DNA of 64,000 nt from contig CANROC010000005.1 of the NCBI GenBank assembly GCA_947632175.1, positions 114,830 through 178,829 on the forward strand, in the 5' to 3' direction. This DNA comes from an uncultured Oscillospiraceae bacterium. Lineage in GTDB: Bacteria; Bacillota; Clostridia; Oscillospirales; Oscillospiraceae. Of this stretch, positions 1,110 through 51,160 are shown in pieces; the first letter of the stretch is position 1; each line of letters opens with the position of its first letter. Both the position numbers and the translations under genes were made by a program. Under the pieces are notes generated by a model. It searched no databases and was not told the DNA's origin. It saw nothing but the letters and a program-made list of their open reading frames with translations.

Positions 1110-1112
1110 TCC

Positions 1113-1286
1113 GGCAAAAAAGGCCGCTGGCCTTTTCCGCCAAAGGGGAACGCGCGAAACCTCCGTCTCAAATTCCGCGGAATTTGAGACGGAGGTTTCT
1201 GCTGTCTCCCCGCGCGCGCCCTCGCCGTCTCTGATGCCGCTTTCTTCTGATGTGCGTATTATACCACAAAATAAGCAATTTGTCAA
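1113..1286 (-). repeat. E element copy E1 (structured repeat with convergent promoter)
   Basis: Begins next to the rny stop with a small gene-proximal hairpin (AAGGCC/GGCCTT type), then a perfect 20-bp stem closed by CGCG at 1156-1199. It ends with a minus-strand promoter at 1258-1286. The conserved box GGAATTTTTTCCGACG and hairpin D found in other copies are deleted here. The promoter reads back toward the 3' end of rny. Same family as 1838-2097, 20126-20279, 28017-28206, 34953-35142 and 48349-48599. Confidence 0.8.
1258..1286 (-). promoter_or_regulatory. Consensus sigma-A promoter within E1
   Basis: On the minus strand it reads TTGACA, 17 bp, TATAAT, with TGTGG just before the -10 (extended -10). 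It would transcribe the 1156-1199 palindrome and the antisense of the rny 3' end. The same promoter sequence recurs at 1838, 6223, 19923 and 48571. Confidence 0.75.
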
Positions 1287-1837: not shown

Positions 1838-1866
1838 TTGACAAATCACTCGTTTTGTGGTATAAT
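1838..1866 (+). promoter_or_regulatory. Consensus sigma-A promoter within E2
   Basis: TTGACA at 1838-1843, 17-bp spacer, TATAAT at 1861-1866, preceded by TGTGG. This is a perfect consensus promoter with no protein gene in its direction, so it should produce the structured E RNA. Confidence 0.8.
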
Positions 1867-2097
1867 ACGCACAACAGAAGAAAGCGGACAAAATCTCCCA
1901 TCGAGCCATTTTTTCCGGCGGCATGTACGTCGGAAAAAATTCCTTTTGTTTTGCGGAGTGTGCGGCCCCTACGGGGCCGTGCGTGGAGCAAAACAGCAGG
2001 AAAGCCCTCCACGAAAGGTCCGCAGACCTTTCGTGGAGGGCTTTCCGCATGTTTCCCTTTGGCATTTGAAAGCCGCGAAGCGGCCTTCAAATGCCAG
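1838..2097 (+). repeat. E element copy E2 (complete)
   Basis: The most complete copy. In order from the promoter: promoter 1838-1866; hairpin C 1908-1940 (ATTTTTTCCG / CGGAAAAAAT); hairpin D 1948-1994 (GTTTTGC / GCAAAAC with an inner GGCCCC..GGGGCC stem); hairpin B 1999-2046, a perfect 22-bp stem with loop CGCA; hairpin A about 2061-2096 next to the acpP stop. Transcription from the promoter would run antisense into acpP. Hairpin A could also serve as the acpP terminator. Confidence 0.85.
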
Positions 2098-5583: not shown

Positions 5584-6222
5584 CAAAAATTTTGAAAGCG
5601 CGGGAAATTTCGGGGGAGAGAGAGAGGAAAAAGGCGGCGCGAAGGCGAAATTGAATATAAACGCGGCGAAGCCGCAACCTTTTTGAAAGGCTCTCTTTCG
5701 TAAAGGGAGCTGTCGAGCGAAGCGAGACTGAGGGATCGAAGGTGTCAATACCGCTGCCGTCATCCCACCTTCGCTGCCCCCCTGCCCCCCTCCTACGAGG
5801 AGGGGGCTTAAAAAGGTTTGCGCCTGCGGCGCATTCTTTGATATCCGCGCGGCGGGGACGGGGAACGAGGGACGAAAGGCGGGCGGGTTTGGAACCCGCC
5901 CCTACAGTTTTTGGAATACTTTCAATCAACGCCGTAGGGGCCGCCACTCCTGGCGGCCCGCGTTTCGATGACCTCCGGTGTCGGTTGAATGGTATAACCT
6001 TCCATATTCCCTGTAGGGGCGGGTTCTAAACCCGCCCGTGCTACGTTGCGTGACGGGAACGGTTCCTATATACGGCACCACCCCCGACACCTTAGCCCCT
6101 CCAACGGAGGGGACAGCCGCGAAGCGGCAGGGGTGGTTCCGTGCGGCGGCGGGCCCTTCCGGCGCTTCGCGCCACCTCCCCCAAGGGGGGGTTAAAAATA
6201 ATTTCGTTTTACTAAAAAATAC
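5584..6222. repeat. Composite intergenic repeat block
   Basis: Gene-free. It contains the GGCTCCCTTTCGTAAAGGG / GTCGAGCGAAGCGAGACTGAGGG repeat (5690-5740), a CCCCCTCCTACGAGGAGGGGG hairpin (5785-5808), and GTAGGGG modules near 5882, 5934 and 6013 separated by the conserved spacer TCGATGACCTCCG..GGTTGAATGG. A related CCCCTCCAACGGAGGGG repeat follows (6105-6190). No cluster of DnaA boxes was seen, despite the proximity of rpmH. Confidence 0.7.
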
Positions 6223-6251
6223 TTGACAAATCGCCTCTTTTGTGGTATAAT
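6223..6251 (+). promoter_or_regulatory. Solitary E-type promoter copy
   Basis: TTGACA (6223-6228), 17 bp, TATAAT (6246-6251), with the TTTTGTGG context shared by the E-element promoters. There are no E hairpins downstream. Transcription would run antisense through the ferritin-like gene at 6297-6797. Confidence 0.7.
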
Positions 6252-6270
6252 ACGGTCAATGAAGACGAAG

Positions 6271-19897: not shown

Positions 19898-19922
19898 AGG
19901 GCAGCTTTTCTCAGCTATGCGT

Positions 19923-19951
19923 ATTATACCACAAAACGAACGATTTGTCAA
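19923..19951 (-). promoter_or_regulatory. Solitary E-type promoter copy
   Basis: On the minus strand TTGACA (19946-19951), 17 bp, TATAAT (19923-19928) in the CGTTTTGTGG context. It points into the 3' end of the YcxB-like gene. Confidence 0.7.
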
Positions 19952-19959
19952 GCGTTTTC

Positions 19960-20125
19960 TTAGTAAAATAAAAATAATTTTACGTAGGGGCGGGTTCCAA
20001 ACCCGCCCGCTTTTTTCGAACCCGCTCTGTCATCCCACCTTCGCTTCCCCCCTGCCCCCCTCCTACGAGGAGGGGGCTTTAAGAGGTTTGCGCCGCTTTG
20101 CGGCGCAATTTTTTATAAAGGCGGC
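19960..20125. repeat. Short composite repeat block
   Basis: One GTAGGGG module (about 19985-20010), one CCCCCTCCTACGAGGAGGGGG hairpin (20058-20079) and a GCGCCGC..GCGGCGC hairpin (about 20090-20107). No gene. Confidence 0.65.
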
Positions 20126-20279
20126 GCGAAGCAAAACAGCAGAAACCCCCGGCGTGAATTCCGCAGAATTCACGCCGGGGGTTTCGCACGTTCCCTCTGG
20201 CGGGAAAGGCCGCAGGCCTTTTTCGCCAGAGGCGTTTCCCCTTGGCATTTAGAGCCCGCAAAGCGGGCTCTAAAGCCAG
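20126..20279 (+). repeat. E element copy E4 (promoter missing)
   Basis: It starts with the tail of hairpin D (GCAAAACAGC). It then has hairpin B at 20142-20185, a 20-bp perfect stem with loop CGCA, and two gene-proximal hairpins: CTCTGGCG..CGCCAGAG (20199-20233) and GGCATTTAGAGCCCGC..GCGGGCTCTAAAGCC (about 20243-20278). It abuts the stop codon of the purine permease gene. The upstream part was probably replaced by the neighbouring repeat block. Confidence 0.75.
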
Positions 20280-28016: not shown

Positions 28017-28206
28017 CGCTGGCTTGAAAGGGCTTCGCCCTTTCAAGCCAAGGGGGAACGTGCGAAAAAAGCTTCGGAAATGTCTGCGGACATTTCCGAA
28101 GCTTTTTTCTGCCGTTTTGCTCCGCGCACGGCCCCGTAGGGCCGCACACTCCGCAAAACAAAAGGAATTTTTTCCGACGTACATGCCGCCGGAAAAAATG
28201 GCTCGA
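28017..28206 (-). repeat. E element copy E5 (promoter end lost)
   Basis: From the gene side: hairpin A GGCTTGAAAGGGC / GCCCTTTCAAGCC (28021-28049); hairpin B 28064-28109 with a 21-bp perfect stem starting GAAAAAAGCTTCGG; hairpin D with GTTTTGC (28114-28120) and GCAAAAC (28153-28159); and hairpin C with the conserved GGAATTTTTTCCGACG box to about 28206. The promoter segment is replaced by another repeat. The A-run before and T-run after stem B make it a good bidirectional terminator for ktrA. Confidence 0.82.
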
Positions 28207-28795
28207 TGGGGGCTTTTAACCTCCCCCCTGGGGGAGGCGGCGCGAAGCGCCGGAAGGGTTCCCCACGGCGGGAAAAGGTTTGCGGCTTCGCCGCATTCTT
28301 ATATTTCCCACCCGCCCGCCCCCGCCGCCGCGCGGAACCACCCCTGCCGCTTCGCGGATGTCCCCGACCTAGGAGGGGCTGACGTGTCGGGGGGGTGGTG
28401 CCGTTTATCGGGACCGTTCCGTCCCGCCACGTGGCACGGGCGGGTTTAGAACCCGCCCCTACAGTGCAAATTGCGTTCCATCAACGCCGTACGGGTCGCC
28501 GCCCACGGCGACCCGCGTTGCAGGTTTCGGATTGCCCCCGATAAACGCCGTAGGGGCCGCCACTCCTGGCGGCCCGCGTTTCGATGACCTCCCACGTCAT
28601 TTGAATGGGATAACCTTCCAAATTCCCTGTAGGGGCGGGTTCCAAACCCGCCCGTCCCCTCGTCCCCCGTCCCCGCCGCGCGGGCAAATCCAAGAATGCG
28701 CCGCAGGCGCAAACCTTTTTAAGCCCCCTCCTCGTAGGAGGGGGGCAGGGGGGCAGCGAGCGTGGGATGACAGACCGGTCCCGACCAAACCCGCC
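28207..28795. repeat. Composite intergenic repeat block
   Basis: It contains a CCTCCCCC/GGGGGAGG-type repeat (28215-28260) and GTAGGGG modules near 28437, 28487, 28550 and 28630, with the conserved spacer TCGATGACCTCC. It ends in an inverted CCCCCTCCTCGTAGGAGGGGGG unit (28720-28750). No gene is seen. Confidence 0.7.
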
Positions 28796-34952: not shown

Positions 34953-35142
34953 CTGGCTCGAAATGCCTTTGGCATTTCGATGCCAAGGGGATACGTGCGA
35001 AAAAAGATTCGGAAATGTCTGCGGACATTTCCGAATCTTTTTTCTGCTGTCAAATCTCGCGCACTCGCTTCGCTCGCACACTCGATTTGACAAAAGGAAT
35101 TTTTTCCGACGTACATGCCGCCGGAAAAAATGGCTCGATGAG
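34953..35142 (-). repeat. E element copy E6 (promoter end lost)
   Basis: Hairpin A GAAATGCC / GGCATTTC (34959-34980). Hairpin B 34999-35044, a 21-bp stem starting GAAAAAAGATTCGG with loop TGCG. Hairpin D has TGTCAAATC (35048-35056) pairing with GATTTGACA (35084-35092), where other copies have GTTTTGC/GCAAAAC. Hairpin C has the conserved GGAATTTTTTCCGACG box to about 35136. It probably also terminates rplT. Confidence 0.82.
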
Positions 35143-35550
35143 GGGGTTGTTTGTCGGAACCGCTCTGAAAACTCAACCCTCGATCCCTCAGTCTCGCTTC
35201 GCTCGACAGCTCCCCTTACGAAGGGGAGCCTTTTTAAAAGGTTGCGGCGCTTTGCGCCGCGTTTGTAAAAATTGCGCCGCGAAGCGGCGCAACCTTTTTG
35301 GCCCCCTCCTCGTAGGAGGGGGGCAGGGGGGAAGCGAAGGTGGGATGACAGGGCGGTTCCGGAAACCGCACCTGCCTCCGACACGGTTGCCCCTCCCCTG
35401 GGGAGGGGGCAGGGGGTGGGGGCGAGCTTTTGAGCTGCCCAATAGACGCTCCCACCCCGGCCATCGCTTCGCTCGGCCGCCCCTCCCAGAGGGAGGGGCT
35501 TTGGCTGGCGCGTTCATCGGACCCGTCCCCCTCCGCCTTGAAAAAATGTT
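35143..35550. repeat. Composite intergenic repeat block
   Basis: An inverted CCCTCAGTCTCGCTTCGCTCG repeat (35185-35235, longer than quoted), GCGCCGC hairpins (about 35243-35290), a CCCCCTCCTCGTAGGAGGGGGG unit (35303-35330) and CCCTCCC..GGGAGGG repeats (35390-35500). No gene is seen. Frames spanning it consist of repeat sequence. Confidence 0.65.
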
Positions 35551-48348: not shown

Positions 48349-48599
48349 AGCTGGCATTGAAAGGGCTTCGCCCTTTCAATGCCAAAGGGAACGTGCGAAA
48401 AAAGTTTTGGAAATGTCTGCGGACATTTCCAAAACTTTTTTCTGCCGTTTTGCTCCGCGCACTCGCTGCGCTCGCACACTCCGCAAAACAAAAGGAATTT
48501 TTTCCGACGTACATGCCGCCGGAAAAAATGGCTCGACAGAGAGTTTTGTCCGCTTTCTTCTGATGTGCGTATTATACCACAAAATGAGCGATTTGTCAA
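48349..48599 (-). repeat. E element copy E7 (complete)
   Basis: From the gene side: hairpin A GGCATTGAAAGGGC / GCCCTTTCAATGCC (48352-48382); hairpin B 48397-48442, a 21-bp stem starting GAAAAAAGTTTTGG; hairpin D GTTTTGC (48447-48453) / GCAAAAC (48483-48489) with an inner GCGAGTG-type stem; hairpin C GGAATTTTTTCCGACG to about 48528; and promoter 48571-48599 reading toward hpf. Confidence 0.85.
48571..48599 (-). promoter_or_regulatory. Consensus promoter within E7
   Basis: Minus strand TTGACA (48594-48599), 17 bp, TATAAT (48571-48576). Confidence 0.8.
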
Positions 48600-51097: not shown

Positions 51098-51160
51098 ATG
51101 AAATCACTCCTCATTTAAAGCTGCCCGCCCCGTGTTCCGGGACGGGCGCGCCGTTGAAAA

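Follow-up and report, generated by a model that had tools for sequence, protein, structure and literature searches.

E elements of an Oscillospiraceae genome: short non-autonomous elements with a structured core, probably inserted at stem-loops by an IS1182-type transposase

The window analysed here, a 64,000-nucleotide stretch of DNA from an uncultured Oscillospiraceae bacterium (assembly GCA_947632175.1, contig CANROC010000005.1, positions 114,830 to 178,829), holds six related copies of a structured intergenic element, termed E. An earlier note on the same DNA had described six copies touching gene 3' ends, and all six are present, each abutting a stop codon (the stop codons beside copies 1 to 6 end or begin at 1109, 2098, 20280, 28015, 34952 and 48348). 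Complete copies comprise, in the order of the promoter strand, hairpins C, D, B and A followed by the stop codon of a convergent gene, the promoter strand of E being antisense to the adjoining gene. Hairpin B, described before for the complete copies, is a perfect 20-22 bp stem in all six (loop CGCA in five, CGCG in copy 1), and the window has four mismatch-free occurrences of the 33-nt hairpin C, against a mean of 0 in 100 shuffles. The copies, together with one site where relatives carry E, are located as follows:

1112-1286, minus strand: E copy 1, partial; A ~1112-1142, B 1156-1199, degenerate D, no C, promoter 1254-1286; 3' of an RNase Y-like gene (from the sequence and the neighbour's Pfam match)
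1838-2097, plus strand: E copy 2, complete; promoter 1838-1870, C 1908-1940, D ~1948-1994, B 1999-2046, A ~2060-2097; abuts the stop codon of a 76-aa ORF, which we take to be acyl-carrier-like
20130-20279, plus strand: E copy 3, partial; no C, of D the 3' arm only (~20130-20137), B 20142-20185, two tandem A hairpins (~20196-20231 and ~20242-20279); abuts a xanthine/uracil permease gene
28019-28206, minus strand: E copy 4; A ~28019-28051, B 28064-28109, D ~28114-28159, C 28167-28199, no promoter; 3' of a TrkA-type gene
34953-35142, minus strand: E copy 5; A ~34953-34987, B 34999-35044, D ~35049-35091, C 35099-35131, no promoter; 3' of the ribosomal protein L20 gene
48351-48599, minus strand: E copy 6, complete; A ~48351-48385, B 48397-48442, D ~48447-48489, C 48497-48529, promoter 48567-48599; 3' of an hpf/S30AE gene
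51098-51160, no strand assigned: empty site with one terminator-like hairpin; loci L159, L183 and L210 have E copies at the corresponding place, and the hairpin sequence is different

Hairpin C was found 65 times (up to 3 mismatches) in the window's genome, from which 63-64 distinct E copies were extracted, and the genomes of relatives carry many more. A BLAST search with copy 6 gave a match in 25 of 60 genomes, the own genome counted (24 of 34 within the genus, and one in another family). Among the matches listed in a separate scan of named genomes are Oscillospiraceae MAGs, Intestinimonas, Lawsonibacter and Pseudoflavonifractor gallinarum DSM 107456. Across a sample of the order the C motif (up to 2 mismatches) occurs in 18 of 295 genomes and 9 of 148 genera from five families, and the C-D-B core likewise recurs in five families. 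The copy set comprises 233 distinct sequences from fetched loci, 64 from the window's genome (own copies) and 169 from elsewhere, a sample shaped by the searches. Own copies divide into 29 with a terminal repeat left of C (class I), 11 with the promoter and 24 with neither, the corresponding numbers for copies elsewhere being 66, 2 and 101.

The E terminal repeat, CAGNYTGTCAAAAAAC, matches that of autonomous IS1182-family elements of the same genus. Class I copies start with CAGNYTGTCAAAAAACTC and finish with TTTTTCGACAGGCTG, while the IS loci of the genus retrieved by a PF13751 search have ends CAGNYTGTCRAAAAA, exact on both sides in L248, L250, L251 and L258; the CAGNYTGTCAAAAAAC / TTTTTCGACAGGCTG ends of class I copies are shared with the IS ends of these four loci, as expected of a MITE. 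All four transposases tested (from L248, L250, L257 and L258) scored above the NF033551 (IS1182 family) cut-off. The copies printed have about 110-430 nt between their ends, too short for a 470-aa transposase, so that by length they hold no internal transposase gene, and locus L221, which has an end without a complete C, contains no transposase. None of the six window copies carries IS-type terminal repeats. Within the window's genome a PF13751 search returned no transposase match and an NF033551 search two matches (the one listed, at C39, is partial and below the cut-off), a weak match from another search lies at C48, the fetched IS1182-remnant stretches contain no E-type end, and no matching intact IS1182 copy was found in an assembly of 82 contigs that is 97.7% complete. 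Since only partial remnants without an E-type end were seen there, the IS1182 partner of this genome may be lost, located elsewhere or unassembled.

In seven of nine two-ended IS copies, drawn from 60 partly redundant loci, the same hairpin stands on either side of the autonomous element (direct score 42 or more, versus a permuted maximum of 19), and the duplication is absent in the other two, L252 and L311. Downstream of the ortholog of hpf, the gene preceding window copy 6, one genome (G013) has an IS1182 element between two terminator copies (L248), and at the same position another (G017) has an E copy with an IS-type terminal repeat (L298). Among 30 IS1182 loci from across the phylum, eight (L383, L384, L386, L387, L392, L402, L404 and L406) are flanked by an exact 16-35 nt hairpin-folding repeat whose two copies lie 1.5-2.0 kb apart. 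The remaining 22 show none: the best repeat reaches no more than 13 nt or, in three loci, the flanks overlap, which places these three beyond the comparison.

A similar arrangement surrounds E itself. From 95 copies with a left terminal repeat, 64 were kept for the flank test (both ends present, with flanks of 40 nt or more to the left and right) and 31 dropped. When the 45 nt on either side were aligned locally, 40 of the 64 copies scored higher than the 99th percentile for permuted pairs, and in those 40 one hairpin, in most cases terminator-like, is present on both sides of the element; the longest exact stretch common to both flanks measures 11-33 nt in 40 copies and at most 8 nt in 24, and hairpin duplication is absent in 24. 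Hairpins of 7 bp or more border the element on the left in 50 copies, on the right in 48 and at both ends in 42, versus a mean of 1.6 and a maximum of 4 for both ends in mononucleotide shuffles; at least one side is so occupied in 56 of the 64, in line with the stem-loop targets of IS1272. Loss of the target hairpin without duplication, the IS1272-type outcome, is not the pattern seen here, the basis being the 40 of 64 copies with the whole hairpin duplicated. For L017, L091, L100 and L145 the second flanking hairpin is matched better in inverted orientation, an outcome that a simple model of duplication does not predict. More distant E copies have a long repeat on both sides in 5 of 17 loci (L363, L369, L373, L380 and L381). 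At L373, too, the second flanking hairpin is better inverted than direct, and in all five of these loci the inversion can be seen in the loop.

Orthologous sites lacking the element provide the complementary view. The search for empty sites gave 24 candidate rows, many of them redundant, and eight comparisons were read. At L165, AAAGCCGCCCGGA...TCCGGGCGGCTTT stands on both flanks of the element, and in the ortholog L139 the terminator is single and the element absent; L213 and L171 form a like pair for a hairpin at a gene end, duplicated in L213 and single in the empty L171. The orthologous hairpin is common on one side only in L274/L150, and for L142/L207 and L101/L177 the empty site is a single hairpin different from the flanking ones. 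The window's own empty site is of this last kind, its hairpin differing from those flanking the E copies of the corresponding loci (L210 compared), and L160, the L20 ortholog of the copy 5 site, has ordinary terminator-like hairpins and no E.

Duplicated hairpin flanks on the one hand and empty sites with a single hairpin on the other make it likely that E targets a stem-loop and that the whole stem-loop is duplicated, and the dozens of elements together with the two clean empty sites indicate, at the level of sequence comparison, that a stem-loop can be copied whole. Terminal repeats common to the IS1182 elements, and the position of 40 of 64 copies between hairpin copies, point to likely insertion by an IS1182-type transposase. 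Thus, with good confidence, E probably represents a set of short non-autonomous elements whose insertion is the work of an IS1182-type transposase with terminator stem-loops as its targets, each of which it would duplicate whole. The MITE-like repeat, one of three options raised by the earlier note, is accordingly the best supported of them for the family (terminal repeats common to the IS1182 family, target duplication, empty sites), although the window copies themselves are without these terminal repeats. By the same token a purely new RNA family, against which a match to a transposon end had been named beforehand as decisive, meets just such a match in the family, though not in the window copies. 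Mechanistically, a hairpin or cruciform would be extruded and the transposase would connect its two feet with the ends of the element, after which gap repair would leave a copy of the hairpin on either side, a pathway that Wan et al. drew as a possibility. Copies flush with a stop codon, as in the window, would be old insertions whose outer end was lost or exchanged; some of these would adjoin a separate promoter repeat, and their B hairpin may serve as the terminator of the gene. Whole-hairpin copying would offer terminators and gene-end repeats a way to multiply, and attack at the hairpin feet is directly testable.

The closest known systems share parts of this behaviour. IS1272 and TnSha1 of staphylococci resemble E in having an IS1182-family transposase and stem-loop targets without a target sequence consensus, several of these targets being confirmed terminators, yet according to the available portions of the two reports they remove the stem-loop wholly or partly (PMC5678879, PMC4923244). 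There the hairpin is replaced or partly deleted with no target duplication described in those portions, whereas around E it is duplicated whole, in contrast to the hairpin removal published for IS1182-type targeting, and most E copies, unlike IS1272/TnSha1, lack a transposase and carry a structured core; whole stem-loop duplication appears in Wan et al. only as a drawn, possible pathway for IS1272 (PMC5678879). ISPse1 of Paracoccus resembles the presumed driver of E in belonging to the IS1182 family and having 16-bp terminal repeats, but is tabulated with a 4-bp direct repeat in the part of the paper available (PMC3281130). The bcr1-bcr18 repeats of the Bacillus cereus group are, like E, short and intergenic, with bcr1-bcr3 MITE-like and bcr10 and bcr18 transcribed and of conserved secondary structure; they differ in their hosts, and the accessible text mentions neither IS1182-type ends nor hairpin target duplication (PMC3446304). 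REP sequences, or CGTC- and GTAG-tagged palindromes, are also multi-copy extragenic palindromes thought to be mobile, but as far as the source portion goes they measure 20-40 bp, with GTAG tied to IS200/IS605-type tyrosine transposases and CGTC to none, whereas E has DDE-type IS1182 ends and four hairpins (PMC3733652). An origin of E from REP or IS200/IS605 is not supported, its ends matching IS1182-type elements. A literature search found no report of whole-hairpin duplication by IS1182-type elements, ISfinder and TnPedia lying outside its scope, so that earlier notice is possible.

What the element carries between its ends is a separate question. Hairpin B could be parsed in 181 copies, with a stem of at least 13 bp in 134 and of at least 19 bp in 120, and pairing was evaluated in 92 non-redundant short-D cores from the 134 under an RNAalifold structure. 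Paired cells amount to 99.9% in C, 98.4% in the D base, 93.6% in the D apex and 97.6% in B, against shuffled means of 96.8%, 78.2%, 79.6% and 73.9%. Compensatory changes are found in the helices, as expected of a structured RNA, the cores being related and preselected for B stems no shorter than 13 bp. On the C-to-A strand, G.U versus A.C cells number 90:1 in C, 39:3 in the D base, 218:6 in the D apex and 37:28 in B; the bias of C and D towards one strand and the near symmetry of B suggest that C and D look like RNA of the C-to-A strand, and as such they are predicted to be kept, while B looks more like a DNA palindrome. In distant genera and families C keeps a CAUGU-type loop, a branched D is present in most cases, and B is palindromic but differs in sequence. 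Rfam searches at gathering score gave no match over the element, with weak hairpin look-alikes alone below that score. A known RNA family is rejected on this basis, in agreement with the earlier note, to whose author no named family with this layout was known. Long forms of D likewise had no Rfam match, and their automatic alignment gave no common fold. Such forms with extra structured modules occur in the D region of L047, L092, L094 and L142, in L274, L292 and L293, and in L031, L042 and L182; the modules look like further insertions, as if by other hairpin-seeking elements, and one of them is in opposite orientation in L274, L292 and L293.

The pairing of the core might instead be maintained without selection on an RNA, through correction of palindromes at the DNA level (template switching) together with gene conversion between copies, an explanation that deserves serious weight even if it is not the one to be expected. 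In its favour, B is a hypervariable near-perfect palindrome: its 133 unique hairpins, all chosen for having 14 or more Watson-Crick pairs out of 19, comprise 2394 cells, of which 2297 are Watson-Crick, 46 G.T and 27 A.C, nearly symmetric between the strands. At the orthologous site L012/L061 (~91% identity) C and A are preserved but B and D differ throughout, a pattern suggestive of exchange between copies, and in L131 the internal loop of D has turned fully paired. Against it stand, for C and D, the summed excess of 347 G.U over 10 A.C cells (a ratio inflated, since the copies are related and many G.U cells inherited) and the internal loops and CAUGU-type loop retained across families. A more far-reaching version of the transposon reading, tentative and rather improbable, is that E forms an order-wide IS1182-driven MITE lineage whose cargo is a conserved non-coding RNA, comprising hairpin C with its CAUGU-type loop, the branched D and the palindrome B; this RNA would aid the element in locating terminator hairpins or in persisting there, or would be of use to the host. 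If true, this would be a family of DDE transposons whose members insert at RNA-type hairpins, duplicate them in full and bring along a functional RNA. In any case the core provides a deep set of covarying sequences for which Rfam has no entry, and one of its hosts, P. gallinarum DSM 107456, is named and cultured.

The location of E at gene ends raises the alternative of a mainly mobile bidirectional terminator kept there by the host, which on sequence grounds appears possible but doubtful. In 29 of 31 own parsed copies without a terminal repeat, hairpin A faces the 3' end of a gene, which in 25 is no more than 100 nt away, and the 20-22 bp stem of B would suit such a role; the same orientation is found in 18 of 25 own class I copies and in 56 of 73 copies elsewhere without a terminal repeat, with genes called by a simple rule of ORF and GC3. 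A run of at least four T, though, ends B in only 22 of 43 own copies (10 of 19 class I, 12 of 24 others) and 32 of 91 copies elsewhere, so that a terminator role of B, the second option of the earlier note, seems plausible but not general, and C and D would be superfluous to it.

The promoter (TTGACA, 17 nt, TATAAT with TGG) had been taken for part of the complete copies; hairpins A to D of that layout hold, and the promoter accompanies copies 1, 2 and 6 only. It is rejected as a component of E, being an independent repeat with 44 copies in the genome (up to 3 mismatches), most of them without E, and five near-identical copies in the window (1254-1286, 1838-1870, 6223-6255, 19919-19951 and 48567-48599). 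Among 31 promoter copies examined, the downstream gene was callable in 29 and the promoter ran antisense into its 3' end in 28, with E between promoter and gene in 11 of the 28. A non-mobile family of structured small RNAs transcribed from this promoter and ended at B is very unlikely: the promoter points into C-D-B at 11 of 64 own copies and the covarying core with its one-strand G.U bias lacks an Rfam match, but only 2 of 169 copies elsewhere have the promoter, its genome copies mostly stand apart from E, and terminal repeats, hairpin duplications and empty sites show insertion. What remains of the small-RNA option is the core itself, supported in sequence by its covarying helices, one-strand G.U, layout in other families and lack of an Rfam counterpart.

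Several further arrangements were observed. Other palindromic intergenic repeat families, of CCCCCTCCTACGAGGAGGGGG and GTAGGGGC type, stand in arrays beside E copies, with palindromic repeats in the window at 1388-1423, 5785-5820, 20055-20090, 28723-28758, 35301-35336 and other positions. At L303 an IS copy lies within a hairpin resembling in sequence the ATACTAATATCTAATTAAAA... module, a further MITE-like module with long inverted ends that is found inside E hairpins in L287 and L182. An E-like C hairpin adjoins an OLE RNA gene (RF01071) at L032:1500-2334, and a distant, single-copy E-like C-D-B lies directly 5' of a tmRNA gene at L376:1500-1630.
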